A program made the translations under genes and the position numbers. The notes beneath the pieces were generated by a model, which was not told where the DNA came from, did not search any database, and saw only the letters and a list, made by a program, of their open reading frames with translations. A DNA stretch of 35,922 nt from a virus. This document shows positions 3,803 to 35,922 of the stretch, piece by piece (position 1 is the stretch's first letter; each line of letters opens with the position of its first letter). The stretch is from the IMG/VR virus record IMGVR_UViG_3300029448_000159, positions 1-35,922 of that record; one strand, 5' to 3'.

Positions 3803-3988
3803 ATGACTGAAGCACAATTTAAAACTCTTTTGTTGCGGTATGACTTTACTTATCCGTTTAGCGACGACCACAGCGCATATAAGCGCGGAGAAGCCCAACA
3901 GCTTGAGATTATTAAAGCAATTAAACAAGACACCACAGGCTCATTAGAAAGCCTCTATCGTTCTTTTATGACACTTCATAGTTTATAA
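3803..3988 (+). CDS. Small conserved-type phage protein, function unknown (61 aa)
   Basis: The start ATG is preceded by AAAAAGG at suitable spacing; an ATG further upstream (3716) would place extra codons across the minus-strand HTH ORF and is not preferred. The protein is soluble, without membrane segments. A central TYPFSDDHSAYKRGEAQQLE stretch resembles the SDDH..(W/Y)..G motif I recall in small unknown proteins of other podophages. It is followed 15 nt later by tandem terminators. It stands alone between RNAP and the replication operon, the position where T7 relatives keep host-takeover genes, but no function can be assigned. Confidence 0.75.
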   Translation: MTEAQFKTLLLRYDFTYPFSDDHSAYKRGEAQQLEIIKAIKQDTTGSLESLYRSFMTLHSL

Positions 3989-4003
3989 ATTTTTCCCTCC
4001 CTT

Positions 4004-4025
4004 GCCGCCTTTGGGCGGCTTTTTT
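4004..4025 (+). terminator. Intrinsic terminator 1 of a tandem pair
   Basis: GCCGCC (4004-4009), loop TTTG, GGCGGC (4014-4019), then six T (4020-4025). It closes the transcript that covers the early genes and the 61-aa gene. Confidence 0.85.
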
Positions 4026-4027
4026 AT

Positions 4028-4052
4028 GCCCCTTTTTGTCAGGGGCTTTTTT
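4028..4052 (+). terminator. Intrinsic terminator 2 of a tandem pair
   Basis: GCCCCT (4028-4033), loop TTTTGTC, AGGGGC (4041-4046), then six T (4047-4052). It is directly behind the first hairpin and just upstream of the SSB ribosome site. The tandem layout suggests an effective early stop for host polymerase ahead of the replication genes. Confidence 0.8.
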
Positions 4053-4088
4053 ATTTCCGTTTCAAAACCACAAAAGGAGAAACACCTC

Positions 4089-4595
4089 ATGACGAAAGAA
4101 AAGAAACTACGCTTTCAAACACCGATAGCTGAGACTAGTTACACGCATTTAACCACCCCGGACTTTGAGTACAACGACGATGGCGTCTATAGCGTTATGC
4201 TGGTCTTTGATCAACGTCCACAGTTTTTCGACGAGATGGAAGCATATGCCGCAGAGACTTTCGGAAAAAAGAAAGTAAGCCTCCCCTTCAAAAAAAACGA
4301 TGAGGATCGCTGGGTTTTTAAAACCAAGTCGAAGTATCGTCCAAAGTTCTTTGATTCGACGGGCAAAGGTATACCCGATGAAGATGTTCGTAACATTTGG
4401 GCGGGATCAGTGGTGCGCGTTGGGGGTACGTATAAAGCGTTTGATAACGCAAGCAAAGGCGTGACAACGTATCCTAGTCGGGTTCAAATTATTAGCTACG
4501 CACAGTCAAACACCGGCTTTGACGCCGTAGACGACGGGTTTGTTCACGAGGCAGTCGCCCAAGACACATTTGACGCCGATGAAGATCAATTCTAA
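4089..4595 (+). CDS. T7 gp2.5-like single-stranded DNA-binding protein (168 aa)
   Basis: Coats single-stranded DNA at the replication fork and contacts the polymerase and helicase. It has an OB-fold-like pattern with YNDDGVYSVMLVFD near residue 25 and IWAGSVVRVGGTYKAF near residue 100. The very acidic tail ends in Phe (DTFDADEDQF), the hallmark of T7 gp2.5, whose terminal Phe docks on partner proteins. Start chosen at 4089 because AAAAGGAG lies about 9 nt upstream; a longer frame from 4002 runs through the terminators. First gene of the replication operon; its end overlaps the endonuclease gene by 17 nt. Confidence 0.85.
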   Translation: MTKEKKLRFQTPIAETSYTHLTTPDFEYNDDGVYSVMLVFDQRPQFFDEMEAYAAETFGKKKVSLPFKKNDEDRWVFKTKSKYRPKFFDSTGKGIPDEDVRNIWAGSVVRVGGTYKAFDNASKGVTTYPSRVQIISYAQSNTGFDAVDDGFVHEAVAQDTFDADEDQF

Positions 4596-5001
4596 ACGGC
4601 GATACCGCTCTGGACTCGAAGAAAAGATCAGTGCGCAGATCACAGCAGCACGACTTTGTGTTGAGTACGAAATGCACAAAATCAATTATTTAGTCCCCGC
4701 GCGTGCTGCTACTTACACACCGGATTTTCGCTTACCAAATGGACGGGGCGGCTTTTTTTTTGTCGAGACGAAAGGACTTTGGGATCTCGAAGATCGCAAG
4801 AAACATTTACTCATCAAAGAGCAATACCCGGAACTTGACATCCGTCTAGTTTTCCAAAACGCCAACGCGCGGATCTACAAAAAATCAAAAACAACATACG
4901 CCATGTTTTGTCATAAAAACGGCTTTATGTTTGCGCACAAAAAGATTCCAGACGATTGGCTTTACCCACAGGAGATATCTGATGCGGCAAACAATTCTTA
5001 A
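4579..5001 (+). CDS. T7 gp3-like endonuclease I, Holliday junction resolvase (140 aa)
   Basis: Cleaves branched DNA and, in T7, also helps degrade host DNA. The match to T7 gp3 is obvious: RSGLEEKIS, YTPDFRLPNG, FVETKGLWD and DRKKHLLIKEQYPELDIRLVF in order. The T7 catalytic residues Glu20, Asp55, Glu65 and Lys67 correspond to Glu14, Asp49, Glu63 and Lys65. The start ATG at 4579 overlaps the SSB end, giving translational coupling. A small GGFFF insertion before the active-site strand is encoded over a run of nine T (4753-4761). Length is close to the family norm of about 150. Confidence 0.94.
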   Translation: MKINSKRRYRSGLEEKISAQITAARLCVEYEMHKINYLVPARAATYTPDFRLPNGRGGFFFVETKGLWDLEDRKKHLLIKEQYPELDIRLVFQNANARIYKKSKTTYAMFCHKNGFMFAHKKIPDDWLYPQEISDAANNS

Positions 5002-5284
5002 TCTTGTTGAAAACGAAAAAGAGCGTAAATTTTTGGAATATCACAGAGACAATCCACACATTTATGAGCTGTTCAAACGTTATGCACTTGTTGCGATTGA
5101 TAGCGGAAGAACGCGATTTGGCGCCAACAGCATCATTGAGCGCATACGCTGGTACTCGTCGGTAGAGTCCAATGAAGATTTCGGATTCAAAATCAATAAC
5201 AACCATGCGCCCTATTATGCGCGCCTTTTTGTCGGCCAGTATCCGCAGCATTCTAAATTTTTCTCACTACGAAATTTGGGGTGA
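4982..5284 (+). CDS. Conserved-type phage protein, function unknown (100 aa)
   Basis: The start is fixed by CAGGAGATATCTG before the ATG; it overlaps the endonuclease gene by 20 nt. The sequence is charged and soluble with NPHIYELFKRYALVAI, FGANSIIERIRW and NNNHAPYYARLFV. I recall small phage proteins with the same N-IFERIRW...NNN..YYAR pattern, but no biochemical role is known to me. It is nested between endonuclease I and DNA polymerase in one operon, so a replication or nucleotide-related role is only inferred from neighbours. Confidence 0.8.
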   Translation: MRQTILNLVENEKERKFLEYHRDNPHIYELFKRYALVAIDSGRTRFGANSIIERIRWYSSVESNEDFGFKINNNHAPYYARLFVGQYPQHSKFFSLRNLG

Positions 5285-5288
5285 TGGC

Positions 5289-8771: not shown

Positions 8772-10415
8772 ATGGAGACGTACAATAGTGATACGAAGGG
8801 AGTCTTTATTAGACATGTCCCTTGTACTGAATGTGGTAGTAGTGATGCCTGCGCAGAATACTCTGATCATATTTTTTGTTTTGCATGTCAGCATTACCAC
8901 GCTTTAAATGTTGACGAGTCATCTGTTAAACCTAGTGTAAACTCAAATGATAGCGAGGTTCAATCACTAAATACCGCATTTATCACAAACGGTGAGTGTA
9001 AAGCGCTATCAGTGCGCGGCATTCATCAAGAGACTTGCCAACGCTTCCAGTACTTAACCGCTAAAAACAGAAGCGGCACAACAGTGCAAGTCGAGCAGTA
9101 CCTGGATAAAAAAGGTAATTTGGTAGCCCAGAAAACCAGAGATAAAAACAAGCAGTTTTCGATACTTGGCAATAGTAGAAAAATGCCCCTCTTTGCGCAG
9201 TACCGTTACAGCGGCGAAGGCGAATGCTTAGTGATCACCGAAGGCGCCATGGACGCAATGAGCGTAGCACAAGCATTTGGACACAAGCACATCGTCGTTG
9301 TTAGCGTCCCTAACGGCGCGCAGTCTGCTAAAAAATCTATTCTCGATAATCTCGACTTTGTGCTCGGCTACAGCGAAATATGCCTGTTCTTTGACGGTGA
9401 TACGCCAGGCAAAGAAGCCACCAAAAGCTGCATCGAAGTGCTCCCATTAGGTCGAGTGTCAATAGCAACCATGGAAGACTACAAAGACGCGAACGAAGCA
9501 CTCATCGACAAAAACCCGAGAGCAATTATCGATGCAATAATGAATGCAACGAAAGCGCGTCCAGACGGCATTGTATTAGCCGAGGATCTACGAGAAGTCA
9601 TTGCAGTACGTGACGACATGTCTGCCATTAAATACCCGTACACGCGCTTAAATGAGCTCACAATGGGCATCCAGCCGAGCACAATGATAACGCTCTGTGC
9701 CGGCTCTGGCGTCGGTAAATCGACCTTCATTAGAGAGCTAGCGTACACGCTGCATGAAGCGGACCAGGTGCTCGGCATGATCATGCTGGAAGAGACAAAT
9801 AAACGCACATTACAAGGATTAGTAGGCATTCACCTTAGTAAGAACATTATTAACTTCCAGAACGTAGTAACAGATGAGCAAATCGTGCAAGCACACAGCG
9901 ATCTTTTTACTGATCGCCCTCTCTTTTTGTACGACCATATGGGTACTCGGGACATCAAAGTGATTAAAAACCACATTCACTGGATGGTAGCCCACGGAGC
10001 GAAGGTGATTATCTTGGATCACATAAGTATGCTCATCGGCGAAGCCACTAGCAAAGTACAAGACGAGCGCCGGCTCATAGACACTCTGATGACAGACTTC
10101 AGATCGCTAGTGCAAGAATTAGGAATCACACTGTTTCTCATTTCGCACCTCAAAAGACCAACCCACGGCGCACACGAAGATGGCACAGCAAAAATCGATG
10201 CGAGCCAATTGCGAGGCTCCGGGGCAATTGTGCAGCTCAGTGATATCTGCATTGGACTCAGCGTCTGTCCAGACGATGTCTCAACGCTCAGGCAGATAGT
10301 TGTCCTCAAAAACAGACACACCGGGCAAGTTGGGTGCGCCGACAAGCTCTGCTATGACCGACACAGTGGGCGACTAAATGAGGTAACCGAAGAGTTCGAC
10401 GATGTGCCATTTTAA
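8772..10415 (+). CDS. T7 gp4-like bifunctional primase-helicase (547 aa)
   Basis: Synthesises RNA primers and unwinds DNA as a hexamer at the fork. The N-terminal zinc-binding domain has Cys18/Cys21 and Cys36/Cys39. The TOPRIM segment shows CLVITEGAMDAMS and LFFDGDTPGKEA. The RecA-like helicase domain has Walker A GSGVGKST (residues 311-318), Walker B VIILDHISML and the downstream LFLISHLKRP block. The acidic C-terminus ends in Phe (EEFDDVPF), like T7 gp4, where that tail binds the polymerase. Length matches T7 gp4A (566 aa), so both activities are expected. It ends the replication operon and is followed by a 549-bp intergenic stretch. Confidence 0.95.
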   Translation: METYNSDTKGVFIRHVPCTECGSSDACAEYSDHIFCFACQHYHALNVDESSVKPSVNSNDSEVQSLNTAFITNGECKALSVRGIHQETCQRFQYLTAKNRSGTTVQVEQYLDKKGNLVAQKTRDKNKQFSILGNSRKMPLFAQYRYSGEGECLVITEGAMDAMSVAQAFGHKHIVVVSVPNGAQSAKKSILDNLDFVLGYSEICLFFDGDTPGKEATKSCIEVLPLGRVSIATMEDYKDANEALIDKNPRAIIDAIMNATKARPDGIVLAEDLREVIAVRDDMSAIKYPYTRLNELTMGIQPSTMITLCAGSGVGKSTFIRELAYTLHEADQVLGMIMLEETNKRTLQGLVGIHLSKNIINFQNVVTDEQIVQAHSDLFTDRPLFLYDHMGTRDIKVIKNHIHWMVAHGAKVIILDHISMLIGEATSKVQDERRLIDTLMTDFRSLVQELGITLFLISHLKRPTHGAHEDGTAKIDASQLRGSGAIVQLSDICIGLSVCPDDVSTLRQIVVLKNRHTGQVGCADKLCYDRHSGRLNEVTEEFDDVPF

Positions 10416-10422
10416 GTGAATA

Positions 10423-10617
10423 ATGCGTACTAAAAACACCCCAAAACCCCCTAAAATAACCCTCGATTCGCTTTTTGTAAGCTATTGTTTTATATGGGTG
10501 TTTTCTTTGTGTCTTTCTTTAAGAGGAGACGCTAGGTGTACACATAGAGAAGACGAAGAGAAGAAAAAAAATAATAGAGAGACTATAGATGACTCTAAGA
10601 GAGACTATAGTTACTGA
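10423..10617 (+). CDS. Possible small membrane protein, doubtful (64 aa)
   Basis: An ATG eight bases after the helicase stop opens a frame with a basic proline-rich start, one hydrophobic stretch (LFVSYCFIWVFSLCLSL) and a very charged Lys/Glu/Asp/Asn tail. The ribosome site is weak and the tail is encoded by purine-rich repeats. A single-pass membrane protein is possible. The alternative is an untranslated leader with chance coding. Confidence 0.3.
   Translation: MRTKNTPKPPKITLDSLFVSYCFIWVFSLCLSLRGDARCTHREDEEKKKNNRETIDDSKRDYSY
10576..10610 (+). promoter_or_regulatory. Tandem 13-bp repeats, candidate late phage promoters
   Basis: AGAGAGACTATAG occurs at 10576-10588 and again at 10598-10610, exactly 22 bp apart, one or two helical turns in phase. 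The ACTATAG core equals the -6 to +1 part of the T7 promoter, and the site sits between the replication and virion genes where a late promoter for the phage RNA polymerase is expected. ACTATAGG also precedes the gene at 12177. No experimental or statistical support is available here. Confidence 0.35.
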
Positions 10618-11436: not shown

Positions 11437-12164
11437 TGGGACTCGAAAGTGCTTCGTACATCAGTTCGCTCAATGTAGCTAACCCATCGGCACAAGATGC
11501 ATTGAGCCAAGCGGATGATCATTTACGGTTAATAAAGACGGCGGTTCAACAGTCCTTTCCAAATATTAATTCTGCTGTAACGGCAACGCCTGCGGTGCTC
11601 AACACAGTTACTGCAATGACTTCAGATGGTAGCACTCCAAGCCTCAACACTGGAATTACGGGTGCCGAAGTCAAGACGCTAATAGGTGTTGTTGAGCCTG
11701 CGATTGCTATCAGTGGTTCGACGGTATCTCTCGATAGTGGCACTGATGCTAGCGCTGTGTGGAGTTTGCTAAAGACTGAAGCCTTCAAGACCATTTATCC
11801 AGTCGGAGCAATCTATACGTCCATCACTGCGACGGACCCTGGTACGCTTTTCGGCGGTACTTGGACAGCATTTGGCGCAGGTAGAGTGCTCGTCGGTCTT
11901 AGCAGTAGCGACGGTGATTTTGATACGGTTGAGGCTACCGGGGGCAATAAAACGCATACATTAACTGTCGATGAGATGCCAGCGCACACTCACGATATTT
12001 TATACCAGGAGCTCGATGATGTAGGCGTCACTACGCACCCTGCTGGTACACAACCTGGTGATCCGACGGCCACAATTGCCACTCAATCTACGGGCGGTGG
12101 TCAAGCGCACAGCATTCTACAGCCATATATTGTGGTTTATATGTGGAAGCGTACACAACTATAG
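11436..12164 (+). CDS. Tail protein with tail-collar / gp10 C-terminal-like domain (242 aa)
   Basis: Virion protein, probably a short fibre or baseplate-type appendage. The N-terminal part (ALSQADDHLRLIKTAVQQSFPNI) is a helical trimerisation-like segment frequent in such proteins. From about residue 120 the typical fold appears: YPVGAIYTSITATDPGTLFGG, WTAFGAGRVLVGLSS, a THTLTVDEMPAHTH histidine block, and GGGQAHSILQPYIVVYMWKRT at the end. This matches the T4 gp10-C/tail-collar group. It opens the tail gene cluster. Confidence 0.88.
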   Translation: MGLESASYISSLNVANPSAQDALSQADDHLRLIKTAVQQSFPNINSAVTATPAVLNTVTAMTSDGSTPSLNTGITGAEVKTLIGVVEPAIAISGSTVSLDSGTDASAVWSLLKTEAFKTIYPVGAIYTSITATDPGTLFGGTWTAFGAGRVLVGLSSSDGDFDTVEATGGNKTHTLTVDEMPAHTHDILYQELDDVGVTTHPAGTQPGDPTATIATQSTGGGQAHSILQPYIVVYMWKRTQL

Positions 12165-12176
12165 GAGAGACTCGAC

Positions 12177-13808
12177 ATGCCGAATGCTTCTCTCACTAAT
12201 ATGTCAGAAATAGGTGTCATTACCGATATCGAGCCTGCGAACTTGCCAGTGAACGCCTTCACGCGAGCAAAGAATGTGCGATTCGACGAAGGATCAGTGC
12301 AGCGCGCCCCGTTGTTTTATGTAGTACAAAACTCGCTGTCAGTAGCTCCCGCGTTCTGCTTCGGAATCACCACCACGACGGGCGGTTTTTCAACAGTCGT
12401 TTTAGTGTCAGACACTTATGATATCGATGAGTTTGCAAATGGGAGCGTGAGTAACAAGAACAGCTTTACTGTTAGCGCGACCACTGAGCCTTTCACTGGC
12501 ACTTCGTTGGCAAACGTTACGTACATCAATCGTGTTGATCGAGCGCCGGTCTTTAGACTGAACGGCAGTAATAATGACTTTGTGGATTTAACTAACTGGC
12601 CGTCGAACTACCGAACAAACTCTCTGCGCACTTTCGGTGACTTTTTGTTGGCTCTCAACACAACCGAGGCTGGTGCTACGTTTCCAACTCGGGTTCGATG
12701 GTCGAACTTAGCGCTATCTAATGCCGTGCCAGACTCATGGGACGCAACGGATCTCACTAAAAGCGCAGGCTTTAATGATCTCGTGCAAATGCGTACACCC
12801 ATAGTTGACGGGCTGCCACTCGCTAGCAACTTTATTATTTACAGCAGCGACCAAGTTTGGCTGGCTGATTTCGTCGGTGGCACTTTTGTATTTAGCTTCC
12901 GTAAACTATTTGGTGACTGCGGCGTCATCAATCAAAATTGCATAACGGAGGTTGCTGGTAAGCATTATGTTTTCGGCACAGACGACATATTTGTTCATGA
13001 CGCTAATTCAAAGAACTCTATCGCTGATCAAAAAATTAAAAAGTATGTTTTTTCAACAATTGACACTGGTAAAACTTCACTGTGCTTTACCCAGCATAAC
13101 CCAAAGTTAAATGAGATTTATTTTTGCTACAGATCCAATGACGACATGTCGGTTCAAGATGTCGGTGCCGACAAGTGCAACCGCGCTGCGGTTTACAACT
13201 ATGCGAATGGTACCTGGTCTTTTATGGATCTTCCAAATGTAACCAGCGCGACTACGGCAGCAATTTCGACGATTATCACTTCGTATGCGAACGCAAGTTC
13301 TCTCGACTACAGCATCGGCGGCTCATATGCGTCGCAAGAAGCTGGACAAGATCAGCACGTAGTTTTTGTCGGCAATCAAGCGCTCGACGCAGCGGGCAAT
13401 GCGGCTATTCCATCGACTAACCGAATATACGGCCTCGACGATGCGGACGGCGGCACGTTAACGGCCCCTTTTGATACTGAGTCTTATGAGTACATTAAGC
13501 TCGAACGCACAGGAATTGATCTCGATCAAATGGCGTCTTTGAATGGCTACAAAGTTATTACCAAAGTTACGCCGCAAATATCGGGGACACAGGCACGAGG
13601 TACTTTTAATTTTGCGTTTGCCGGCAATGATCTTATGAGTGACGCTCCCGATTTTTCTAATGTAGTAAATTTTGATCCTCTCACAGAGCACAAAATTGAT
13701 GTCCGAGCATCTGGCCGTTATCTCTCTTATTCACTGACTTACACGGCAATCATGGATTTTAACTTTGTCGGATTTGATGCCGAAATTAAGGTCACCGGGA
13801 GACGTTAA
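12177..13808 (+). CDS. Virion protein, putative tail nozzle or stabilisation protein (543 aa)
   Basis: Large beta-rich protein. The start LTNMSEIGVITDIEPANLPVNAFTRAKNVRF is of a type I recall in podophage tail/neck proteins. Inner regions have repeated beta-strand patterns and a GKHYVFGTDDIFVHDA stretch typical of propeller-like tubes. T7 gp12 and P22 gp10 are functional analogues by size and place, not demonstrated homologues. ATAGGAGAGACTCGAC before the ATG gives a strong ribosome site and also contains ACTATAGG, a possible phage promoter core. Confidence 0.7.
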   Translation: MPNASLTNMSEIGVITDIEPANLPVNAFTRAKNVRFDEGSVQRAPLFYVVQNSLSVAPAFCFGITTTTGGFSTVVLVSDTYDIDEFANGSVSNKNSFTVSATTEPFTGTSLANVTYINRVDRAPVFRLNGSNNDFVDLTNWPSNYRTNSLRTFGDFLLALNTTEAGATFPTRVRWSNLALSNAVPDSWDATDLTKSAGFNDLVQMRTPIVDGLPLASNFIIYSSDQVWLADFVGGTFVFSFRKLFGDCGVINQNCITEVAGKHYVFGTDDIFVHDANSKNSIADQKIKKYVFSTIDTGKTSLCFTQHNPKLNEIYFCYRSNDDMSVQDVGADKCNRAAVYNYANGTWSFMDLPNVTSATTAAISTIITSYANASSLDYSIGGSYASQEAGQDQHVVFVGNQALDAAGNAAIPSTNRIYGLDDADGGTLTAPFDTESYEYIKLERTGIDLDQMASLNGYKVITKVTPQISGTQARGTFNFAFAGNDLMSDAPDFSNVVNFDPLTEHKIDVRASGRYLSYSLTYTAIMDFNFVGFDAEIKVTGRR

Positions 13809-14088: not shown

Positions 14089-14396
14089 TGAATACTGCAG
14101 TTTTACTTATTGAAAACGACGAGTTTGAGGCGCATTTGCAGCAATTTGGTGAGCGTACATTTGTTCATTGTGCTGTCCTCGTCCCGTGGACTAAATCTCT
14201 GAGATTCACAATAAAAGAACATTTAAATCAAATAATGGCGTGGCGTAAAGATCCGCTTTTTGCTTTGCACAATGTTGGCGACAAAAAGCATTCCACGTTT
14301 TTAAGAATCATGGAATTCACTTTCGATCATCACATTGCAGACACCCCAGATAATGTACCTCGGGTGGTCTACAAGCGCATCAAAAAAAAGAGGTAA
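14088..14396 (+). CDS. Unknown protein in the tail cluster (102 aa)
   Basis: GTG start nested in TAGTG with the upstream gene; the ATG at 14073 lies inside that gene and is less likely. The sequence is mixed with TAVLLIENDEFEAHLQQFGERTF, HCAVLVPWTKSLRF and a basic end VVYKRIKKKR. There are no membrane segments or recognised motifs. Its place before the ejection-type proteins suggests a virion or assembly role, from context only. Confidence 0.6.
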   Translation: MNTAVLLIENDEFEAHLQQFGERTFVHCAVLVPWTKSLRFTIKEHLNQIMAWRKDPLFALHNVGDKKHSTFLRIMEFTFDHHIADTPDNVPRVVYKRIKKKR

Positions 14397-14400
14397 TAAA

Positions 14401-15366
14401 ATGGGATTCGATCCGGTAACAATGGCACTCATGGCGAGCAGTACAGCTCTAGGATACAAAGGTGAGTATGACGCCCGAAAAGAACAGCGCCGTCAGTCTG
14501 ATTTACAGGCCGCTGGGTACAACTTTTCGGCGCCGTACATCGAGCGCAGCTACGACCGTGCGGAAGCTGCTCTTAACGACTCGCTAGAGCAAGGTACGTA
14601 CCAGGGACAAACTTATGCAGACATGAATCCGTTCTTGAATGAGGGACTTCGTTTCGGCGGTCAAGCGGGCGCACAAATCGGAATGAGCGGTGCGGAAATG
14701 GCCGATACTGCCCGTGGGTTTGCAGGCAATTACAACGATCTGTATTCGCGGGCTAACCAAGACCGCATCGGCAGCGCAATGGATTATGCGACGGCAAATA
14801 GCTCGCCACTCATTCAAGCCGCGATGCGTAATGACTTTCGTAATTTGAGCGAAAACACGATCCCTGGGATTAATGTAAGCGCCTCTGGCGGTGCGAATAT
14901 GAATTCTAGCCGCGCTGGGGTAGCTGAAGCCGTAGCAAATCGGGCATTTGATGACCGAATGGCAGACACGAGCGCTAGCATTAATGACTCACTCATGTCG
15001 CGCTATTTGTCGGATGATCAACAGCAATTTAACAATGCAATGAATGCAAATAGAGCGTTGGGTGGCGTGTACAACACTGGTCTGCAAAATATCTCTCAGG
15101 GCGCAAACATGATGAGTGCCGCCGGTCGCGGTTACATGGATTACGACCAAGGCGCGCTTACTGATGCTTATAGGAGATTTAATGAAGCTCGTGATTTCCC
15201 ACTTCAGCAGAACATTGAGTATCAGCGGGGTATTCTTAACAACGCCGTCTATGAATCACCTAGGAACCCTAGTGCAGTGACTGCAAGCCCGCTGAGTGGT
15301 GCTATTGGCGGCGCAATGCAGGGGTTTGGCTATTCTCCGGCACCTGGGAATCCGCCCCCTTTCTAG
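14401..15366 (+). CDS. Putative internal virion / DNA ejection protein (321 aa)
   Basis: Start at 14401 with AGAGGTAATAAA upstream. The N-terminus has a short hydrophobic stretch (PVTMALMASSTALGYKG), followed by long Ala/Gly/Asn/Gln-rich helical sequence with many Arg-Asp pairs, ending GGAMQGFGYSPAPG. Such composition and placement match the T7 gp14-like small ejection proteins that form a channel in the cell envelope. Homology to gp14 itself is not visible. It lies directly upstream of another ejection-type protein. Confidence 0.6.
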   Translation: MGFDPVTMALMASSTALGYKGEYDARKEQRRQSDLQAAGYNFSAPYIERSYDRAEAALNDSLEQGTYQGQTYADMNPFLNEGLRFGGQAGAQIGMSGAEMADTARGFAGNYNDLYSRANQDRIGSAMDYATANSSPLIQAAMRNDFRNLSENTIPGINVSASGGANMNSSRAGVAEAVANRAFDDRMADTSASINDSLMSRYLSDDQQQFNNAMNANRALGGVYNTGLQNISQGANMMSAAGRGYMDYDQGALTDAYRRFNEARDFPLQQNIEYQRGILNNAVYESPRNPSAVTASPLSGAIGGAMQGFGYSPAPGNPPPF

Positions 15367-15408: not shown

Positions 15409-16566
15409 ATGATGAACAATTTACCAGCTTATGTTCCAAATATTGGTGTACCCGATCAGCGTTTTTTCGATGCAAATACAAATGAAATCGTGTCGATAAT
15501 GGGTGGCGCGCCCCCGCTCTACACTGGCAATCCACAAAGTGTGTTTAATAATCCCGCGCTGCCTGCATTGGCGAGTAACAATGCTCCAATGCCTGCTGCT
15601 TTATCGAGCAATCTTGTAAATACCAATGTTTCTCCAATGTCAGCCGCGCCAGGTTCACCCAATTCGGCAGGGCCGATGCCGCCGATGCCGTCAGCATATA
15701 CTGTGACTGTTGATAATGAGCAAGACTATCAGCGACTCGTGGACCAATTAAACGCGCCCAGTGTTTCAGAACCTGCGCCTGTCACGAGCCAACGTCGCAA
15801 CAATACTCGCGTGCAGATACCGCCAGATCAGCAAATTGGCAACAGAGAGCGTCTTCTTAGGATGGGTACGGCAGTACTTGCCAGTGGAGGTTACCAGGGT
15901 GGTGGTTTGACCGAAGGTTTGGCGGCTGCGGGTGGTGCTTATGCTAATGTTAATCAAGCGAATCGTACAGCAGCACTTAAGGAATACGAAAGAGCTCAAG
16001 AAGCTGAAAAAATAGCCATGCAAGAGCAGCAAACTCAGCTCGAAAGAATGCGAAAACGCGAACGAGAAGCCCGCTCAGTTGGATATGAGGCTACTAAATT
16101 AGAAAATCTTTATAAAACACTTGGAAACGCAGGGGATACCGTCACTGGACCGATCCAAGGCACTTTCGGTGATTTGCTAGATCGTATGTCAAGAACATAT
16201 GGAGATCCAGCTATCGCCGATCTTAGAAACCAGTTGAAAGAATATAAAGTTGACGAGACGCTAAAACGTATTGCACTCACGAAGGGAGCAGTCAGCGACA
16301 GGGAGATGGCTATATTTGAAAGTCCATTTCCAAAAATGACGGATAGTGAAGAAGTTTGGCTACTAAATATCAATAGAAAACGTCAAATCGCGCAAAAAAT
16401 ACACGAGAGAATGCTTAACGATATACAAGTCGCGCGGGATTATGAGCCTAATTATTTACCGAGTAATTCAATAATACAAACTCAAGGAACTCAACAGCCG
16501 ACCACTCAACCAACTCCAGCGCCTCTATCTCCCGAAGACGAGTCCCTTTTTGAAAACATTCAATAA
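15409..16566 (+). CDS. Putative internal virion protein with coiled coil (385 aa)
   Basis: The N-terminal 100 residues are Pro/Asn/Ala-rich and probably disordered. A Gly-Ala segment (GTAVLASGGYQGGGLTEGLAAAGGAYANV) could insert in membranes. A coiled coil follows (EYERAQEAEKIAMQEQQTQLERMRKRERE), then a helical domain (KGAVSDREMAIFESPFP) that I recall in ejection proteins of other podophages. The tail is Thr/Gln/Pro-rich. It pairs with the large protein at 19442; the methyltransferase cargo separates the two. Role inferred from composition and order. Confidence 0.6.
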   Translation: MMNNLPAYVPNIGVPDQRFFDANTNEIVSIMGGAPPLYTGNPQSVFNNPALPALASNNAPMPAALSSNLVNTNVSPMSAAPGSPNSAGPMPPMPSAYTVTVDNEQDYQRLVDQLNAPSVSEPAPVTSQRRNNTRVQIPPDQQIGNRERLLRMGTAVLASGGYQGGGLTEGLAAAGGAYANVNQANRTAALKEYERAQEAEKIAMQEQQTQLERMRKREREARSVGYEATKLENLYKTLGNAGDTVTGPIQGTFGDLLDRMSRTYGDPAIADLRNQLKEYKVDETLKRIALTKGAVSDREMAIFESPFPKMTDSEEVWLLNINRKRQIAQKIHERMLNDIQVARDYEPNYLPSNSIIQTQGTQQPTTQPTPAPLSPEDESLFENIQ

Positions 16567-16852
16567 AGTGGAGCCGGTCTACTCAAAACAAAACTATTCT
16601 TAGTCACCTTGAAAGTAGCTTAGAAAGATTAAGCGTTTTTTATCATTACCAAATTAATAACCCTCACTTGCAGTCTGTAGGTTGCTCAATGCGATCACAT
16701 GATCGATACAGAATGTTTTTAGATTTTGCGAAAAGAAAACTGCATGACCACGGGGTTGCAACTTACGAAAAATGCAATTCAAAAATTAAATTCCCCCACT
16801 CCTAGGTTTGGCTTTAGGGAAAACATTACAAAACTTACTAAAAGACTGAGCA
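16567..16852. pseudogene. Spacer with possible gene remnant before methyltransferase 1
   Basis: No gene with a start and ribosome site. A + strand frame without a usable start stays open to the TAG at 16803. It reads like protein (LESSLERLSVFYHYQINN, then SMRSHDRYRMFLDFAKRKL). An inverted repeat CGATCA-CA-TGATCG lies at 16692-16705. It may be the end of a lost cargo gene left by the insertion. An open frame of this length can also occur by chance, so the remnant reading is tentative. Confidence 0.35.
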
Positions 16853-18058
16853 ATGCTTAACACTATCGATTTGTTCGCAGGATGTGGCGGTTTAACCGAA
16901 GGCTTTAAGCAATCTGGCCACTTTAAAATGCTTGCAGCAGTGGAATGGGATAAAGATGCGCTTGCCACTCTGTGTGATCGATTAATGCATGCCCATGGCT
17001 ACAAAGATGCGGCCAAGCGATGTATTTTGGCTGATATTCAGGATACGAAATCCTTAATTCATGGAAAGGATGCTGATGATGAATTCCCCTCTCACGAAGG
17101 TTTAGATGCTTTAGTTAATGATAAAAAAGTGGATGTCATTATTGGCGGTCCTCCATGCCAGGCATACTCTGTTGCAGGCCGCATAAGAGACGAAAATGGC
17201 ATGCATGAAGATTATAGAAATTACTTGTTTGAATCTTACATGGCAGTAGTCAATCACTTCAAGCCAGCAGCATGTATCTTTGAAAATGTTCCAGGTATGC
17301 TCAGCGCAGCACCTCTAGGCATCTCAATCATAGAAAGGATAAGTGCTGCTTTTAAAAAATCTGGTTACGAAATATCCTCAAATCTTAAAGGACAAGCCAC
17401 ACTAGATGTTTCTGAATTTGGCGTCCCACAAAAGAGGAAAAGAGTAATTATTGCTGCTTTTCGCAGGGACCTCCATGAAAATCCAAAAAATGTAGTTGAT
17501 CAGTTTTACCTCAACTTATCATCAGAAAAAACTTCTGCAGTTATCACAGTTAAAGAAGCTATTGGAGGGCTACCTAAACTTTATCCAATTAAAGGGGCTA
17601 ATGGTAAGAAGTCTCATACCGAAGATGAACTGAACTTTGTAGCCGATCATGAGCCTCGCTTCCATAGTCAGCGAGATATTGAGATATTCGAAATGTTAGC
17701 GGAGGATATATCGTCAGGTCGAAATAGATATACCTCTTCAGATGCACTGAAGGCTCTTTATACTGAAAAAACTGGAAAGAAATCTGCTGTACATAAGTAT
17801 TATGTACTTAGGGATAGCATGCGTAGCAATACAATTCCGGCGCATCTTTATAAGGACGGTTTGCGACATATACATCCCGACCCCAAGCAAGCTCGCAGCA
17901 TAACTGTTAGAGAAGCAGCATGCCTTCAAAGTTTTGATCTGGATTTTATTTTCAAAGGGCCAAATGGTTCTAAATACAAAATGATTGGGAATGCAGTGCC
18001 CCCAACGTTTGCAAAGAAAATCGCTATCTCACTTCGACAAACTATTGCTCAAACATAA
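16853..18058 (+). CDS. DNA (cytosine-5-)-methyltransferase 1 (401 aa)
   Basis: Transfers methyl from S-adenosylmethionine to C5 of cytosine in a specific site. Motif I is IDLFAGCGGLTEGF at residues 5-18. Motif IV is GGPPCQAYSVAGR with nucleophile Cys102, motif VI FENVPG with Glu144, motif VIII FGVPQKRKRVIIAAF, and motif X MIGNAVPPTFAKKIA. The target-recognition region lies between VIII and IX, with RSITVREAACLQSF before motif X. All motifs are intact and the length is normal. No restriction endonuclease is adjacent, so it is an orphan, most simply protecting phage DNA from host restriction. The ATG has a weak upstream site (GACTGAGCA), unlike the strong sites of the virion genes, suggesting separate origin. 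Confidence 0.95.
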   Translation: MLNTIDLFAGCGGLTEGFKQSGHFKMLAAVEWDKDALATLCDRLMHAHGYKDAAKRCILADIQDTKSLIHGKDADDEFPSHEGLDALVNDKKVDVIIGGPPCQAYSVAGRIRDENGMHEDYRNYLFESYMAVVNHFKPAACIFENVPGMLSAAPLGISIIERISAAFKKSGYEISSNLKGQATLDVSEFGVPQKRKRVIIAAFRRDLHENPKNVVDQFYLNLSSEKTSAVITVKEAIGGLPKLYPIKGANGKKSHTEDELNFVADHEPRFHSQRDIEIFEMLAEDISSGRNRYTSSDALKALYTEKTGKKSAVHKYYVLRDSMRSNTIPAHLYKDGLRHIHPDPKQARSITVREAACLQSFDLDFIFKGPNGSKYKMIGNAVPPTFAKKIAISLRQTIAQT

Positions 18059-18248
18059 TATAAAAATTCTTAGTAATTAAACTACTCTGTTCGAGATGGA
18101 ACGATTATAAAAAAGTGGTTTAGAACATTTGCAAAAACTGGGAAAACTAATTGGAATAATTTTCCTGATACAAAGATGAGCGGCACTCTGAGCGAAGCGG
18201 GTTTTCAAAGACATATTTCTAAATACTTGGCGGCACATAAATAAGAAA
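18059..18248. pseudogene. Gene remnant between the two methyltransferases
   Basis: A + strand frame open from 18077 to the TAA at 18242-18244 (55 codons) reads like a protein C-terminus: IIKKWFRTFAKTGKTNW, then [20 protein letters not shown]. It has no start near its head and no ribosome site for the internal ATG at about 18176. Likely the tail of a truncated gene carried with the methyltransferases. The family is not recognised. Confidence 0.4.
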
Positions 18249-19439
18249 ATGAAAACACTATCATTCTTCAGCGGGTGTCTCGGACTGGACTTGGGTTTGG
18301 AACAATCCGGCGCCAAAACACTGCTTTATTGCGAAAATGACCCGCACGCTTCAAAGACAATTCAACTTAACAGACCAAATACGCCATTAATTCGGGACAT
18401 TCTCGACCACGATGCTGCTTCAATATTAGATGCTGCGAATGTGAAAAATCGAGAAGAGATTGATTTAATTGTTGGTGGTCCTCCATGTCAGGCATTTTCG
18501 ACAGCAGGGAAGAGAGCGAGTTTCACAGACCCTAGGGGGAATGTATTTCTTCATTTCATACAAATCATTACAGAAATAAAACCAAAATATTTTGTAATCG
18601 AAAATGTCCGTGGTCTTCTCTCTGCGGCGCTAGAACATCGTCCTCACAATCAGAGGGGGAGTGGTTTTCCTCCTTTGTCAGAAAGAGAGGAGAGCGGTGG
18701 TGCTCTTAAATTAGTCATTCAGATGCTTGAAAGTGCTGGTTATGAGATAACCTTCAATCTCTATAATACCGCTAATTATGGCGTGCCTCAAAAACGAGAG
18801 AGACTCATTATTTTGGGTTCACTTTCAGTAAAAGTCCCGTTCCTTACTCCAACTCATTCTTCGGAGGATAGTTGGGGACTAGATAGTTGGGTGACTTTCT
18901 CGGATGTGGCAAAAGATTTAGTTGATATAGAACACGAGCATGTAAAATTTTCTGAAAAACGAATAAAATTTTACCGTTTGTTGGAGGGGGGGCAGTATTG
19001 GAAGGACCTTCCTGAGGAGGTTCAACCCGAAGCGATGGGGAAAAGTTATTTCTCGGGAGGTGGTAAAACTGGGTTTTATCGAAGAATTTCTTGGGACAAA
19101 CCAAGTCCTACTCTGGTAACTCATCCCGCAATGCCGGCGACTGATTTGTGTCATCCAACGGCACTAAGACCCCTTTCGGTAGAAGAATACAAACGAATAC
19201 AACAATTCCCTGACGATTATGAAATTTCGGGAACAACTCTTCAAAAGTATCGGCAATTGGGAAACGCAGTGCCAGTAGGTTTTGGGAGAGTAATCGGGGA
19301 AACGATTCGAGACTGCATAAGCGGGCGAAACTTTGATATTGAAGAATTCAAAGGTTTTCCATACTCAAGATACAAGAAAACTGACCATGAAAATTGGAAG
19401 TTCGGGAAACAGAAATTAGATTTCAATCAAAAGGAGTAA
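18249..19439 (+). CDS. DNA (cytosine-5-)-methyltransferase 2 (396 aa)
   Basis: Second C5-cytosine methyltransferase, clearly different in sequence from its neighbour. Motif I is [18 protein letters not shown] (Leu replaces the usual second Gly). Motif IV is [14 protein letters not shown] with nucleophile Cys80, motif [13 protein letters not shown], motif [19 protein letters not shown], and motif [18 protein letters not shown]. The recognition region about residues 210-300 differs from that of enzyme 1, so a different target site is expected. The gene is complete, runs in the same direction, and ends two bases before the ATG of the ejection protein, whose AAAAGGAG site lies in its last codons. 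No nuclease partner is seen. Confidence 0.95.
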
Positions 19440-19441
19440 TC

Positions 19442-22400
19442 ATGACGACACAGACACGACTCCCGGAAGATTTCAAAGCGGCTTATGAGTACCACAAATC
19501 GAACGGTGATTACACCAAGGCAAAGCGCGTAGCGGATTTATATCGCCAACAATTGTCAGGACAGCAGCCGCCCACTCAACAGCAGCCGCCCACTCAACAG
19601 CAGACAACTGTCTCGCCTGTTGCAGTCGCTGACCGTGACAATGCGTTGCAGTTTAGCGTTGATCAGCTTCAAAAAACGACAGGAAACCTGCTTGAGTTTG
19701 CTGGTCGCGCCACAAGTATGGGAGGCATTGAGCAATACGGACGCGATGTGATTGAACAACAGAAAACTGACATTGCGGAAGGTGGGTACCAATCAAGCTA
19801 TGCCGATCCCTTGAAAGATTATATACAGCGCGGCGATTATGGAACGTTTGCAAAAGCTCTAGGGACCAAGATGGCGGAAAATGCCGCATCTGTGGGAGTT
19901 GCGCCGGCAACCGTTGCCACAGCTACCGCTGCCGCTGCGTATGGTGCGCCTGCGGCAGTCATTGCAGGATTGTCGGTGCTCGGCACAGCCGCAACTGTTG
20001 GATTAGGCATTGGCGAAGCAGTCGGCGAGCAAAAAGATAAGTTGGGTGACTTCAATACCGCTACGGCGGGTGCAACGGGCTTACTTATTGGTCTACTAGA
20101 CCGCGTGGGTGCCAAAGGTATTTTAAAGCCCGATACGCTTGCAAATATGTCACTCAAAGACATTGCAAAGGTGCTAAAAGAAAAGGGACCAGCAGGCAGT
20201 GCCAAAAAATTCTTACGTGCTTTTCGAGACGAGTTTTTAACTGAGGGTGCGCAAGAATCTACGCTGATTGGAGCTACCGCGCTTCAAGGCGGGCAATACA
20301 CGGGCGACGAAGTTTTAGGGCGTGTGTCGGATGCTGCACTTATTGGCGGCGCTACTGGTGGGAGCATTCGCGGCACAGTGGAAGCAGCAAATGCCGCAAA
20401 ATCTGGACTTAGCAGTGTGCTGCAAAAAGCGCAAAAAGTTCAAGATTTAGGTGAAATCACAGAAGCAGAATTCATTGAGACACCTGCTGTTGGCAGAGGG
20501 CGCGATCAAAAGATTGCAACTGAAGCTAGCTTCCCCGGTATTGAAAGAGAAAAAGCTGCAACGGCTCGCGGTGCAAAGGGCGCAATGGCTCGACGATTAA
20601 TTGATAAAGTTGTGATCGACGAGTACGACTTAACCGACGTTGCTATTGCGTCTACTTCTGGAGCTCGCGCAGCGATTGACTCTATACACAAAGATTTAGT
20701 TTCAGCGCTTAAATTAAGTGCTTCAAACATTAAAAAAACTTACAAGGGCATTCTAGAAAAAGATGAATTATCAGTGCTTGAAAAAGTTGCATCGAAAGCG
20801 CAGAACAAAACTAAAAACGTTGTTGACAATAGCGACATCAGTGCGGTGCTTGATATTTTGGGCAATACGCCAGAAGCTGTGGATTTTATAAACTTGGCGT
20901 TACAACTCAATGAAGTAACTATTTTACACAACGCCGGGTATATTGGCGGTGTCAGTAAATTAACTGATCAATTTTTGCCATTCACGGATGTCACTGGCAT
21001 AAACTACAACCCTCAAAGACAAACCCCAACGGTTACAAATACAGCAGCTCAATTTGTTACCGCGCCCATTGGGATCACTGGTCGAGCAATTGATAAAATT
21101 ACTGGAAGACGCTTTCCGCTTCAGAGATATATGGAGAGAAACAAAAGTGCGCCAGGATTACCTTTGCCAGAACGCGGCGGTAAAGTTGCTATGGCAATAG
21201 CAGCGCAAGAACGCGAAAACCAACAAACAGATAGATTCAATCGCGCTACTGACAGTTTGCTCGCAGAGCAGCTCAGTTCAGATGATGCGATAATGGGATC
21301 GCCGCGTGATATTTTTGGTCGAGGCACGGGACTGAGGTTGCCCGACATAATTTCAACACTCGAAAATTTAAGTGCTGAAGCGACAGATGCTGATGTAAAA
21401 GCACTGTTTGAGGCAAATATTGCAGCGCTGCAGACGGGAACAGAATCTGCACCGAACATGAGTGCTGTTATCGCAGAGGTGCGCCGCCGTATCGCTCAAG
21501 ACCCTGAATTGCAAGCTCTTCAAATTGCGCCAGCCGAAGCAACGGGTGCTCGTGCAAATCTACAACAAAATCAACAAGTAGGCCAAGTCCTGACGAGCCA
21601 AGCAAATGTTAATTATGAGCGCGGTGTTCAAGCTAACCGCGATCGCGCTAAAGCGCTCCAAGAACAATTGATGGCAGATACAGCGATCTCTGCTAGCGAC
21701 AAAGCGCTAATTGGTGCGAAGTTGGATGAGCTGCAATATGGTAATTTAGGCGTACGCCCATTGGAGGCTTTAAATTCGATGTTGCGGAGTTTGAAAGAGA
21801 GCAACGTGTCGATTGAAGCCGTCGATAATTACTTTATGCCAGCGGCAATGGCTATTGGAAAACAGCAAAGGAATGCACCGAAGCCTGCCGATGATTCAGA
21901 GTTAGCACTTTCTTATACGCCGCCAAAACGTTCTAAAAGTGGAAAATACATTGGCGCCCCTACACCCCGCGCACCTCCGAGCATTCCAAAGCCCACCGTC
22001 GGTGAAGTGAAAGAGCAACTTCCAGAAGCCGACGCTAAGTTCTCGATTGGAAAAAAGGGTTCCAAATATGAGAACGGACTGCCATCTTTTGATGCCGCAA
22101 AAAGATTCATTAGCGAGCTAGGTTATAGTTTGAATCTTTATCAAAACTTTGATGCTTTTAACCGCGATATGAAAGCTATGTCTGGCGAAGAACGCGACCG
22201 AATGACAACAAAAGGCTCTTTTGCACGGCGCACTGGTACGATTTTAATTAATCCAACCCAAGGCAATTTAGAGCGCTTTTTGACGGTTTTGCATGAAACC
22301 GGGCATGGGCTTGGCAAAACAAACATAAACAGTAATTTATTTATGCCGATGCTCGAAGAAGGATCTTTTGAATCGCTAGTAGAAAGTAACGCCAAGATTC

Positions 22401-22846
22401 AAAACGAGATGGCCGCGATTCAGCGCGATGAGTATCGGAGAGAATTATCGGATGGCCGAACCGTGCGCCAAGACGTACGCTCTGGCATAGACATGACTGT
22501 GTCGGGCAGTATGACTATTGAAGAAGCCATGCAATTAAGCGATTATCAAGAATATGCTGCAACGAATACTGAGCGCGTTGCAGACGCATTTGCGTTTTAT
22601 CTTTTTGATCCAAAGCGGATGAAATCAAACTATCCCGCGACGGCTAAAGCAATCCAAAACTACTTTAAAAGACTTCAAAAGCGCGATCCATCAATATCAG
22701 TCACTTTCCAAGCAAATCCGTTGACGGTTATTTTGGCAGCAGTCATGGCAGGTGTTGCACAAATGGCTGCACAAGATGACGAAGAAAAAGAGAATCGCCC
22801 ACAGCGTGGCGTACTCACCCCCACTGTCGGCGCACTGTCGAGTTAA
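19442..22846 (+). CDS. Large internal virion / ejection protein with HExxH peptidase motif (1134 aa)
   Basis: Probably an internal core protein injected with the DNA. The N-terminus LPEDFKAAYEYHKSNGDYTKAKRVADLY is followed by a Gln/Pro repeat (QQPPTQ twice). Next come a Gly/Ala-rich hydrophobic region (about residues 155-230) suited to membrane insertion and long helical regions. Near the C-terminus FLTVLHETGHGLGKT gives His951-Glu952-xx-His955, and NTERVADAFAFYLF supplies Glu1044, a likely third zinc ligand or support residue. That suggests a metallopeptidase-like domain, unusual in place of the transglycosylase of T7 gp16. Start at 19442 is set by AAAAGGAG. The methyltransferase cargo lies immediately upstream. 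Confidence 0.75.
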   Translation: MTTQTRLPEDFKAAYEYHKSNGDYTKAKRVADLYRQQLSGQQPPTQQQPPTQQQTTVSPVAVADRDNALQFSVDQLQKTTGNLLEFAGRATSMGGIEQYGRDVIEQQKTDIAEGGYQSSYADPLKDYIQRGDYGTFAKALGTKMAENAASVGVAPATVATATAAAAYGAPAAVIAGLSVLGTAATVGLGIGEAVGEQKDKLGDFNTATAGATGLLIGLLDRVGAKGILKPDTLANMSLKDIAKVLKEKGPAGSAKKFLRAFRDEFLTEGAQESTLIGATALQGGQYTGDEVLGRVSDAALIGGATGGSIRGTVEAANAAKSGLSSVLQKAQKVQDLGEITEAEFIETPAVGRGRDQKIATEASFPGIEREKAATARGAKGAMARRLIDKVVIDEYDLTDVAIASTSGARAAIDSIHKDLVSALKLSASNIKKTYKGILEKDELSVLEKVASKAQNKTKNVVDNSDISAVLDILGNTPEAVDFINLALQLNEVTILHNAGYIGGVSKLTDQFLPFTDVTGINYNPQRQTPTVTNTAAQFVTAPIGITGRAIDKITGRRFPLQRYMERNKSAPGLPLPERGGKVAMAIAAQERENQQTDRFNRATDSLLAEQLSSDDAIMGSPRDIFGRGTGLRLPDIISTLENLSAEATDADVKALFEANIAALQTGTESAPNMSAVIAEVRRRIAQDPELQALQIAPAEATGARANLQQNQQVGQVLTSQANVNYERGVQANRDRAKALQEQLMADTAISASDKALIGAKLDELQYGNLGVRPLEALNSMLRSLKESNVSIEAVDNYFMPAAMAIGKQQRNAPKPADDSELALSYTPPKRSKSGKYIGAPTPRAPPSIPKPTVGEVKEQLPEADAKFSIGKKGSKYENGLPSFDAAKRFISELGYSLNLYQNFDAFNRDMKAMSGEERDRMTTKGSFARRTGTILINPTQGNLERFLTVLHETGHGLGKTNINSNLFMPMLEEGSFESLVESNAKIQNEMAAIQRDEYRRELSDGRTVRQDVRSGIDMTVSGSMTIEEAMQLSDYQEYAATNTERVADAFAFYLFDPKRMKSNYPATAKAIQNYFKRLQKRDPSISVTFQANPLTVILAAVMAGVAQMAAQDDEEKENRPQRGVLTPTVGALSS

Positions 22847-30376: not shown

Positions 30377-33300
30377 ATGGCTACTAGCTTTTACAGTGGG
30401 TCTGGCGTTACTACAACAAACACCACTGCGATCGAGTCTGTAAAAACACAGGCAGAAAATAGTGCAACTGCCGCTGCTACGAGTGCAACTGCCGCTGCTA
30501 CGAGTGCAACTGCCGCTGCTACGAGTGCAACCGCTGCTGCCGCTACGGCTGCGGCAATGGCGACGGTCCTTGACGAAGATGACTTTGCAAGCGACAGTGC
30601 GTCTGCGGTGCCAAGCCAGCAGTCAACCAAAGCGTACATTGTTAGTCAAGCAACAACCTCTTCGCAAGCACGCGCTTTGGTAGAAAGTGCGACAGATTCC
30701 AATGTATTTACCGATGCCGACCACACTAAGCTAGATGCGATTGAGGCATCTGCTACTGCGGATCAAACAGCAGCCGAAATAAGGACTCTCGTAGAAAGTG
30801 CGACAGATTCCAATGTATTTACCGATGCCGACCACACTAAGCTAGATGCGATTGAGGCATCTGCTAATGCATATACCTTGCCGTCTGCAACTGAAACAGC
30901 ATTGGGCGGCGTGGAGCTTTTCAGTGACACTGTTCAAACCGTTGCCGCGAATTCTGTCACTGTTGGATCTTCAAGAACTTATGGTATACAACTGAATACG
31001 GCTGGACAAGCCGTAGTGAATATACCGTGGACTGACACTGTTGGCGTTCCGACAGTGAAAGCGAATCAAGATGGCACTACGACAACACCGACGAGTAATG
31101 CTATTCAATTAATCGCTGGAAATAACATAACGATAGCTGAAGTGGGGTTGCCAGGTAACTTCAATTTTGCAGCAACGGGTTTGCTACCAACAGCAGGCGG
31201 CACGATTACAACTGACAATAAAATCAAATTTAGAGATGATGCAATTCACATTAGTTCGAGTGCTGATGGTCAGTTAGATATTGTCGCAGACACAGAAGTG
31301 CAAATCGACACTGGTACTCTAGATGTAAATGCTAATATATATTTAAGCGGATTTATCTCTTCGGCAAGTTCAATTGACTGTGCGGCGCTCGGAACTAATA
31401 GCAACGCAAATATTGGTGGTAATTTAGATGTGTCTGGCGACGCAACATTCAGCGACGACCTGTCTTTAGACTCAGATGCCGCAGTTTTAAACTTTGGTGC
31501 TAATTCAGAAATCAAAGTAATACATGTCCATGATTCTGGTCTTAACTTTAAGCACACGGCTACAGCCGACGATAAGCCTTTTACTCTGACTTTACAAACT
31601 GGTGAGACAGACATAGCGGCTGATGATGTTTTAGGTGTAATTAACTTCCAAGCCCCAGATGAAGGAACAGGCACAGACGCAATATTAGTAGCCGCAGGTA
31701 TCGCCGCTGTATCTGAAGGTGACTTCAGTGCCTCTAATAATGCCACGAAATTGAGCTTTAGAACTGGTGCTTCTGAGACTGCTACGGAAAAAATGAGTTT
31801 ATCTTCTGGTGGTAATCTAAGTTTTCCTGACAATGGTAAGGTTATCTTTGGTGCAAGTGATGATCTACAGATTTATCATGATGGTAATAGTTATATAAAA
31901 GATGCAGGAACTGGATCAATTAGAATACTTGGTGATGATGTCAGAATCTACAATGCAGCAGGAAATAAAATAGGCGCTCAATTTATACAAGATGGTGAAG
32001 CAAGGTTAAAGTTTGACAATAGCACTAAGTTAGCCACTAAATCAGGTGGAATAGAGGTTACAGGCACAATATCCACCCCAACCGCAGGAACCTCTAACGT
32101 CCGCTTTGGTGTCAACGCAGGTAACAGCATTACAAGCGGTGGTAATTATAATGTTGTCGTAGGCGATGAAGCGGGTACTGCGATTACTACTGGTGATAAC
32201 AATGTTGCTGTTGGATACAACGCGCTCACGGCAAACACTACAGCGAGCAACAACACCGCAGTTGGTTATGAGTCTTTACAAGTAAATACTACAGGTACGA
32301 ATAACGCCGCATTGGGTATGCGTTCACTAAATGGTAATACCACTGGGGGTCAAAATACTGCTGTTGGTAAGCAGGCCATGAACACAAGTAGTACGGGAAG
32401 CAATAATGCATCCGTTGGTTATCAATCTTTGTACGCAAACACCACAGGTTCAAGTAATACAGCAGTTGGAGCGCAATCCCTTGATGCAAATACTACAGCC
32501 AGTAATAATACGTCTATTGGTTATCAATCTCTAACTACAAATACCACAGGGGCTTCAAACACTGCGGTAGGACAATCTGCTTTAAGCACTAATAGCACTG
32601 GAAGTAGCAACACTGCGATGGGTCGTCAAGCGTTGCTAGCTAACACTACAGCTTCAGAAAATACCGCAGTAGGTTATCAAGCTCTGTACGCTAATACGAC
32701 AGGTGATGGAAATACTGCAATCGGTGTGAAAGCAATGGATGCCAATACTGTTGGCGATAGAAACGTGGCAGTTGGTGCTGATGCTTTAGGTAGTATGAAT
32801 CCTGATAGTAACGCTGATACTTACAATACTGCTGTAGGATACAACGCAGGATACGCAGTAACCACAGGCATAAACAACACCCTCATCGGTGGTCTCGCAG
32901 GGGATGCTCTTACTACTGGAAACTACAATGTAATTGTTGGAAGTCAAAGCGATTCAACTGCTATTGATTCTGAAAAAGCACAAGGCTTTGGGTTTAACCT
33001 CGATTGTGCGGCAGGTTATACAACAATAGGTTCAGGTTCCGACGACATTAGAGCCGCACACGGTAACGTCACATGGGCAACAGTATCTGACGAACGCTAC
33101 AAAAAAGACATTGCAGACTCTACAGCAGGTTTAAGTTTCATCAATGCTCTTCAGCCTCGTACCTTTAAGTACAAGACCCTTGGCGAACTTCCTGAAACCT
33201 TTAGCGCCTATGAAGCTGACTCAACTGAAGTCTTTAAAAACTCTGACACCAATCACGGCTTTATAGCCCAAGAAGTCAAAGCGGCTATAGATGCTGACAC

Positions 33301-35517: not shown

Positions 35518-35604
35518 TGGTGCCTGGAGCCGGGATCGCACCGGCACGAGATTTCTCTCGACAGACTTTAAGCCTGTTGCGTCTACCAATTTCGCCACCC
35601 AGGC
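35518..35604 (-). tRNA. tRNA-Leu(UAA), probable attP core
   Basis: Complete 87-nt cloverleaf with encoded CCA: acceptor GCCTGGG/TCCAGGC, D arm with TTGGTAGA, anticodon stem ACAGG/TCTGT around CTTAAAG (anticodon TAA), long variable arm CGAGA/TCTCG, T stem GCCGG/CCGGC. The T loop reads TGCGATC, so the near-universal T-Psi-C has G at position 55. It lies between holin and int. In other integrase-bearing podophages a tRNA-Leu segment is the crossover site, so this likely contains attP. Whether it is also charged and used is open. Confidence 0.88.
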
Positions 35605-35818: not shown

Positions 35819-35922
35819 CAGTTTTCTTATGAAGCACTGTTATTTCCACAGTTTAACAAGGGAAACTTTGAGGGAAAACCTAACGGAGAAAAGCTATGAA
35901 ACTACGAGATTACATCAGCGAC
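35819..35922. repeat. Terminal direct repeat, right copy
   Basis: Repeats bases 1-104 with one difference at 35917 (A for C at 99). It therefore includes a second copy of the integrase start, with AGC (Ser) in place of CGC (Arg) at codon 8. On a circular genome this is the same locus as the left end. Confidence 0.9.

Follow-up and report, generated by a model that had tools for sequence, protein, structure and literature searches.

Two phage C5-cytosine methyltransferases and the probable remains of two restriction-modification systems

How does a phage acquire methyltransferases that have no nuclease to accompany them? Phage genomes often encode such solitary methyltransferases (143 were counted in 831 genomes; PMC4176335), and it is disputed whether they arise through the decay of whole restriction-modification (RM) systems or are drawn from a circulating, independent gene pool. 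The survey that counted them argued against the breakdown of complete systems as a frequent origin, and favoured the gene pool (PMC4176335). Here, we analysed a virus contig of 35,922 bases (the window), from an integrase-bearing T7-like phage carrying two C5-cytosine methyltransferases, M1 and M2, with virion genes on both sides and no intact nuclease adjoining. Like other phage solitary methyltransferases, M1 and M2 lack a matching nuclease; unlike them, they come from unrelated systems, stand in tandem, have partner fossils that can be identified, and occupy a site that is empty in a relative. A solitary methyltransferase in a phage is a known kind of gene; a preserved decay intermediate is unusual and useful, and this locus keeps the intermediates of two RM systems at once, together with the empty site for comparison.

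An inserted block and its empty site

The window encodes an integrase, a single-subunit RNA polymerase, a DNA polymerase, a primase/helicase and an exonuclease, as well as a portal, scaffold, capsid, tail spike and endolysin. Its RNA polymerase shares only about 25-28% identity with those of the nearest named phages, which include pelagiphages and a roseophage. The ends of the record carry a direct repeat of 104 bp at 99% identity (1-104 and 35819-35922), so the genome is probably complete.

The preliminary description of this DNA had proposed a comparison of the locus with relatives, and an empty site was found in a close relative. Searches with gene B identified IMGVR_UViG_3300017752_000054 and IMGVR_UViG_3300017755_003833, which over the region they share are practically one virus; with these two near-identical relatives, the comparison involves two kinds of phage in all. 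Both aligned with the window up to one edge of the block and again from the other at 85-92% DNA identity, and both lacked the block itself (Table 1). The edges are good to a few bases, and the native stretch aligns to both of them (16-base overlap in the relative). In the relatives, 12 bases containing one Shine-Dalgarno sequence separate the end of gene A from the start of gene B. The gene A protein is 86% identical in IMGVR_UViG_3300017752_000054, where it adjoins the empty site, and gene B is 93% identical over the shared part. M2 ends in native phage sequence: its last codons and its stop come from the stretch that precedes gene B. Gene A alone as a query retrieved no relative, and three of the five pattern matches to the start of gene B (L097, L099 and L101) proved unrelated. 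The block turned up in no other record of the set searched, which may omit near-identical records.

Table 1. Features of the methyltransferase locus, in window coordinates
Feature	Position	Strand	Description
Reciprocal empty site	5278..5285		Occupied by a different C5 methyltransferase in the relative only
Gene A	15409..16566	+	Late virion-region gene (385 aa) bordering the block on the left
Inserted block, about 2.85 kb	16575..19421	+	Alignment to relatives stops at 16574 and resumes at 19422
First-methyltransferase C-terminal relic	16703..16849	+	In-frame stops, broken motif X; ends 3 bases before M1
M1, intact C5-cytosine methyltransferase, 401 aa	16853..18058	+	PF00145 full length, E=1e-56
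SinI-family restriction endonuclease relic, C-terminal 50 residues	18086..18244	+	PF09570 E=7e-16, positions 168-217 of 218
M2, intact C5-cytosine methyltransferase, 396 aa, SinI/TdeIII/EcoO109I-type	18249..19439	+	PF00145 full length, E=5e-64
Right edge, retained Shine-Dalgarno of gene B (AAAAGGAG)	19422..19441	+	Overlaps the end of M2
Gene B	19442..22846	+	Late virion-region gene for a large protein (1134 aa), bordering the block on the right

As read from the sequences, the comparison points to a gain of the block rather than its loss, a direction given mainly by the RM fossils within it. GC content dips across the block (0.38-0.43 versus 0.46 overall), which is only suggestive of a foreign origin; codon usage was rejected as proof of such an origin, the deviation being non-significant for M1 (p=0.07) and M2 (p=0.2). 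M1 and M2 are preceded by weak Shine-Dalgarno matches and the downstream gene by a good one, in agreement with the earlier remark that the ribosome sites of the methyltransferases differ from those of virion genes. No promoter beyond chance was detected in the block. The preliminary description had also placed the methyltransferases between two ejection-type genes. A gene at 14335-15366, one upstream of gene A, matches the PHROG family 'DNA ejection protein' (E=4e-11), whereas genes A and B themselves match no named family; the proposed position between two ejection genes is likely.

Two methyltransferases and the relics beside them

The block contains, in this order, the relic of a first methyltransferase, intact M1, the C-terminal relic of a SinI-type nuclease and intact M2. 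Both enzymes have motifs I, IV, VI, VIII, IX and X in one open frame, those of M1 being read directly as FAGCGG, GGPPCQAYS, FENV, QKRKR, RSITVREAA and GNAVPP. M1 and M2 share 25% identity overall, and their target-recognition regions have no convincing similarity. The preliminary description was thus right that two complete C5-cytosine methyltransferases with differing recognition regions lie here, and right that a restriction nuclease is absent: none is intact in the block.

By homology, M1 is the second methyltransferase of a LlaJI/NgoFVII-like two-methyltransferase system. It is 64% identical to an enzyme from Vibrio chagasii and 62% identical to one from Glaciecola, and the second members of tandem C5 pairs of the LlaJI type (GACGC; PMC1459862) or NgoFVII-like type (GCSGC; PMC4081073), from bacteria and phages, are 47-64% identical to it. 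Of 51 genome homologues of M1 with at least 47% identity, 47 are immediately preceded by a co-oriented first C5 methyltransferase gene; the four exceptions are explained by a split first gene (L021 and L050), a later start call for the M1 homologue (L054) and a contig end (L065). The first methyltransferase is likewise upstream in all 11 viral homologues at or above this identity, split in two frames in one of them. The nucleases adjoining such pairs are LlaJI, NgoFVII (PLD), HNH_2 and other kinds. The nearest relatives of M1 (Vibrio and Glaciecola) have an HNH-type protein beside the pair, so that GACGC and GCSGC are only candidate sites for M1.

Unlike these systems, the window has no matching nuclease gene between gene A and gene B, and only a decayed C-terminus of the first methyltransferase is left upstream of M1. 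The frame ending at 16849 aligned by BLAST with the C-terminus of first methyltransferases. Against a profile built from 52 of these enzymes it scored 10.2 bits, matching model positions 315-355 of 357; the best of 2000 dinucleotide shuffles reached 6.0 bits. Two truncated protein ends had been noticed earlier, one of them in the frame running to 16805; here the relic is in the neighbouring frame, and the frame to 16805 gave only a sub-threshold GRDP-like match and no plasmid match in searches of Pfam, NCBIfam, PADLOC and plasmids.

The other truncated end, at 18077-18244, is indeed the C-terminus of a SinI-family endonuclease. An RE_SinI profile search over the whole window scored 1.5e-16 and indicated that nothing beyond profile positions 168-217 of 218 remains; PADLOC assigned the relic to REase_II (9e-18). 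The relic is 50% identical to the C-terminus of a SinI-family nuclease from a Pseudomonas plasmid, and its stop lies 4 nt before M2. This nuclease family is rare, found in one of 398 genomes sampled from the phylum.

M2 is related to enzymes paired with SinI-family nucleases. In SinI-family type II RM systems (GGWCC; a PF09570 nuclease with a C5 methyltransferase, e.g. on Vibrio plasmid p09022A and in Streptococcus phage YS162), the methyltransferases are 49-58% identical to M2, and the 50-residue relic of the window corresponds to the end of their nuclease. Plasmid relatives at 52-58% identity include enzymes adjoining SinI-family nucleases in Vibrio, Klebsiella, Psychrobacter, Acinetobacter, Pseudomonas and Treponema records, and the enzyme beside the SinI-family nuclease of phage YS162 is 49% identical. 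Other relatives are paired with TdeIII or EcoO109I nucleases; in the tree M2 falls at the base of the SinI/TdeIII/EcoO109I clade, a position that leaves its nuclease partner unplaced. The window differs from the SinI-family systems in that the nuclease is destroyed, no intact copy being found in the whole window; its relic precedes M2 on the strand that both share, and an N-terminal extension of some 60-100 residues, which most relatives have and which to the eye resembles a helix-turn-helix, is missing from M2. M2 shares a start at or near the catalytic core with a Vibrio plasmid enzyme and a viral enzyme of IMGVR_UViG_3300035701_008648. The latter (3947-5116) is 48% identical to M2 and has no recognised nuclease adjoining.

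An assignment of M1 and M2 to one strand-specific pair was ruled out, as they belong to different families with different partners. No close M2-type gene was found in four bacteria with M1-type systems. Collectively, the sequence comparisons support the view that M1 and M2 are survivors of two different RM systems. The earlier proposal of a transferred RM block with only its protective halves remaining is borne out by three independent findings (the empty site, the SinI nuclease fossil and the decayed first methyltransferase), with three amendments: two systems were involved instead of one, the upstream relic is a methyltransferase in another frame and not a nuclease, and in the M1 system one of the two protective enzymes was lost as well.

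Origin and function of the methyltransferases

We consider it likely that the block derives from RM systems whose nucleases were lost, and that M1 and M2 are made late, mark progeny DNA and shield virions from host restriction. A block from two bacterial RM systems would have entered where two late virion genes of the phage meet, at the ribosome-binding site; the evidence fits uptake either of whole systems or of an already damaged island. The nucleases would then have been lost, possibly through one deletion that began shortly behind M1 and ended within the SinI-type nuclease gene. In Glaciecola an HNH-type gene follows the M1 homologue by ~17 nt; a single deletion of this kind could have taken both nucleases at once. 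The first methyltransferase of the M1 system would also have been lost, while M1 and M2 stayed open. Late expression of both is expected, since they lie within the late operon without a promoter of their own beyond chance, and 5mC would be placed on progeny DNA before packaging. Methylated virion DNA would be protected against restriction in the next host, and such a shield is the best inference for the role of M1 and M2.

The sites marked can be predicted. M2 most likely marks GGWCC, as SinI does, and less probably a GGNCC-like site; GGWCC is the best prediction because the product of M.SinI is GGW-5mC-C (PMC2614495). For M1, the probable target is a short site such as two-methyltransferase systems read, marked on one strand; the LlaJI system, for example, reads GACGC/GCGTC and has both methyltransferases alongside its nuclease (PMC1459862). 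Neither candidate site was avoided in the phage (GGWCC, 23 seen versus 20 expected; GACGC/GCGTC, 78 seen versus 87 expected), so the phage has sites that methylation could protect. The protective value of M1 is doubtful because its pair partner is lost, and marking can also carry a cost, as 5mC is attacked by McrBC-like enzymes (PMC2614495). A more specific scenario, that one deletion disarmed two adjacent RM systems inside the phage and that the lone pair member leaves a permanent one-strand mark defeating the matching nuclease, is possible but rather unlikely. With this locus it becomes testable whether a phage can be protected by a lone enzyme from a strand-specific methyltransferase pair.

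A second methyltransferase was found in the relative IMGVR_UViG_3300017752_000054. This different C5 methyltransferase (9445-10555) lies between a small gene and the DNA polymerase gene, just upstream of the latter, at a point where the window has no insert. Within this phage group, therefore, genes of this kind are gained and lost at more than one location. The gene of the relative is split over two frames and may be decaying or mis-assembled; its presence fits selection for this activity.

Could the block simply be recent bacterial debris that decays as a whole, with M1 and M2 merely unbroken so far and of no benefit? Two of its four recognisable genes are already ruined, the ribosome sites are weak, no promoter exceeds chance, and the set searched yielded no second record with the block. 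We nevertheless regard such a neutral passenger as unlikely: M1 and M2 run for about 800 codons without a stop and retain every motif, whereas the fossils next to them are interrupted by stops or reduced to a minor part of their original length. Moreover, M2 adjoins gene B without spoiling its ribosome site, and a sister phage independently keeps another methyltransferase. An assembly artefact, in which bacterial RM debris was joined into a phage contig, would account for the dip in GC content and for the failure to find a second contig with the block. It is nonetheless highly improbable, given that both flanks consist of over 15 kb of co-linear phage sequence in a record with terminal repeats, that the two edges carry diverged versions of a single native stretch rather than a long exact repeat that could mislead an assembler, and that the M2 reading frame closes within phage sequence and is followed by an intact start of gene B.

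The methyltransferases might also serve gene regulation, lysogeny or packaging instead of protection. The phage has an integrase, and solitary methyltransferases are commoner in temperate phages and prophages (PMC4176335). Such a role is hard to reconcile with the location in a late virion operon without an own promoter, with relatives that live without either enzyme at this site, with the recent origin of M1 and M2 from RM systems and with the absence from M2 of the N-terminal extension of most of its relatives; we give it very little credence. Protection of virion DNA by enzymes surviving from RM systems is the explanation we prefer.

Other observations on the phage genome

GGCC, unlike GGWCC, is under-represented, with observed/expected ratios of 0.51 in the window backbone and 0.45 in IMGVR_UViG_3300017752_000054, and so is CCGG (0.64 and 0.59, respectively). 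This scarcity is a hint of host restriction at other sites.

A tRNA-Leu (TAA) gene at 35518-35604 is close to the integrase gene (78-950) across the ends of the record, and is a likely attachment site. Gene B contains a HETGH metallopeptidase-like motif (in the 20.9-23 kb region), and the large virion-region protein that it encodes may be a protease. In the relatives, gene B has an extra in-frame segment of 1.8 kb (about 600 aa, matching DUF7178 / phrog_3842; IMGVR_UViG_3300017752_000054 11574-13358 and relative contig L005 326-2112), which is absent from the window at 21961-21963. Internal repeated segments of the tail-spike gene also vary in copy number between the window (30680-30870) and relatives (L006 8484-9235; L278 1514-2265).
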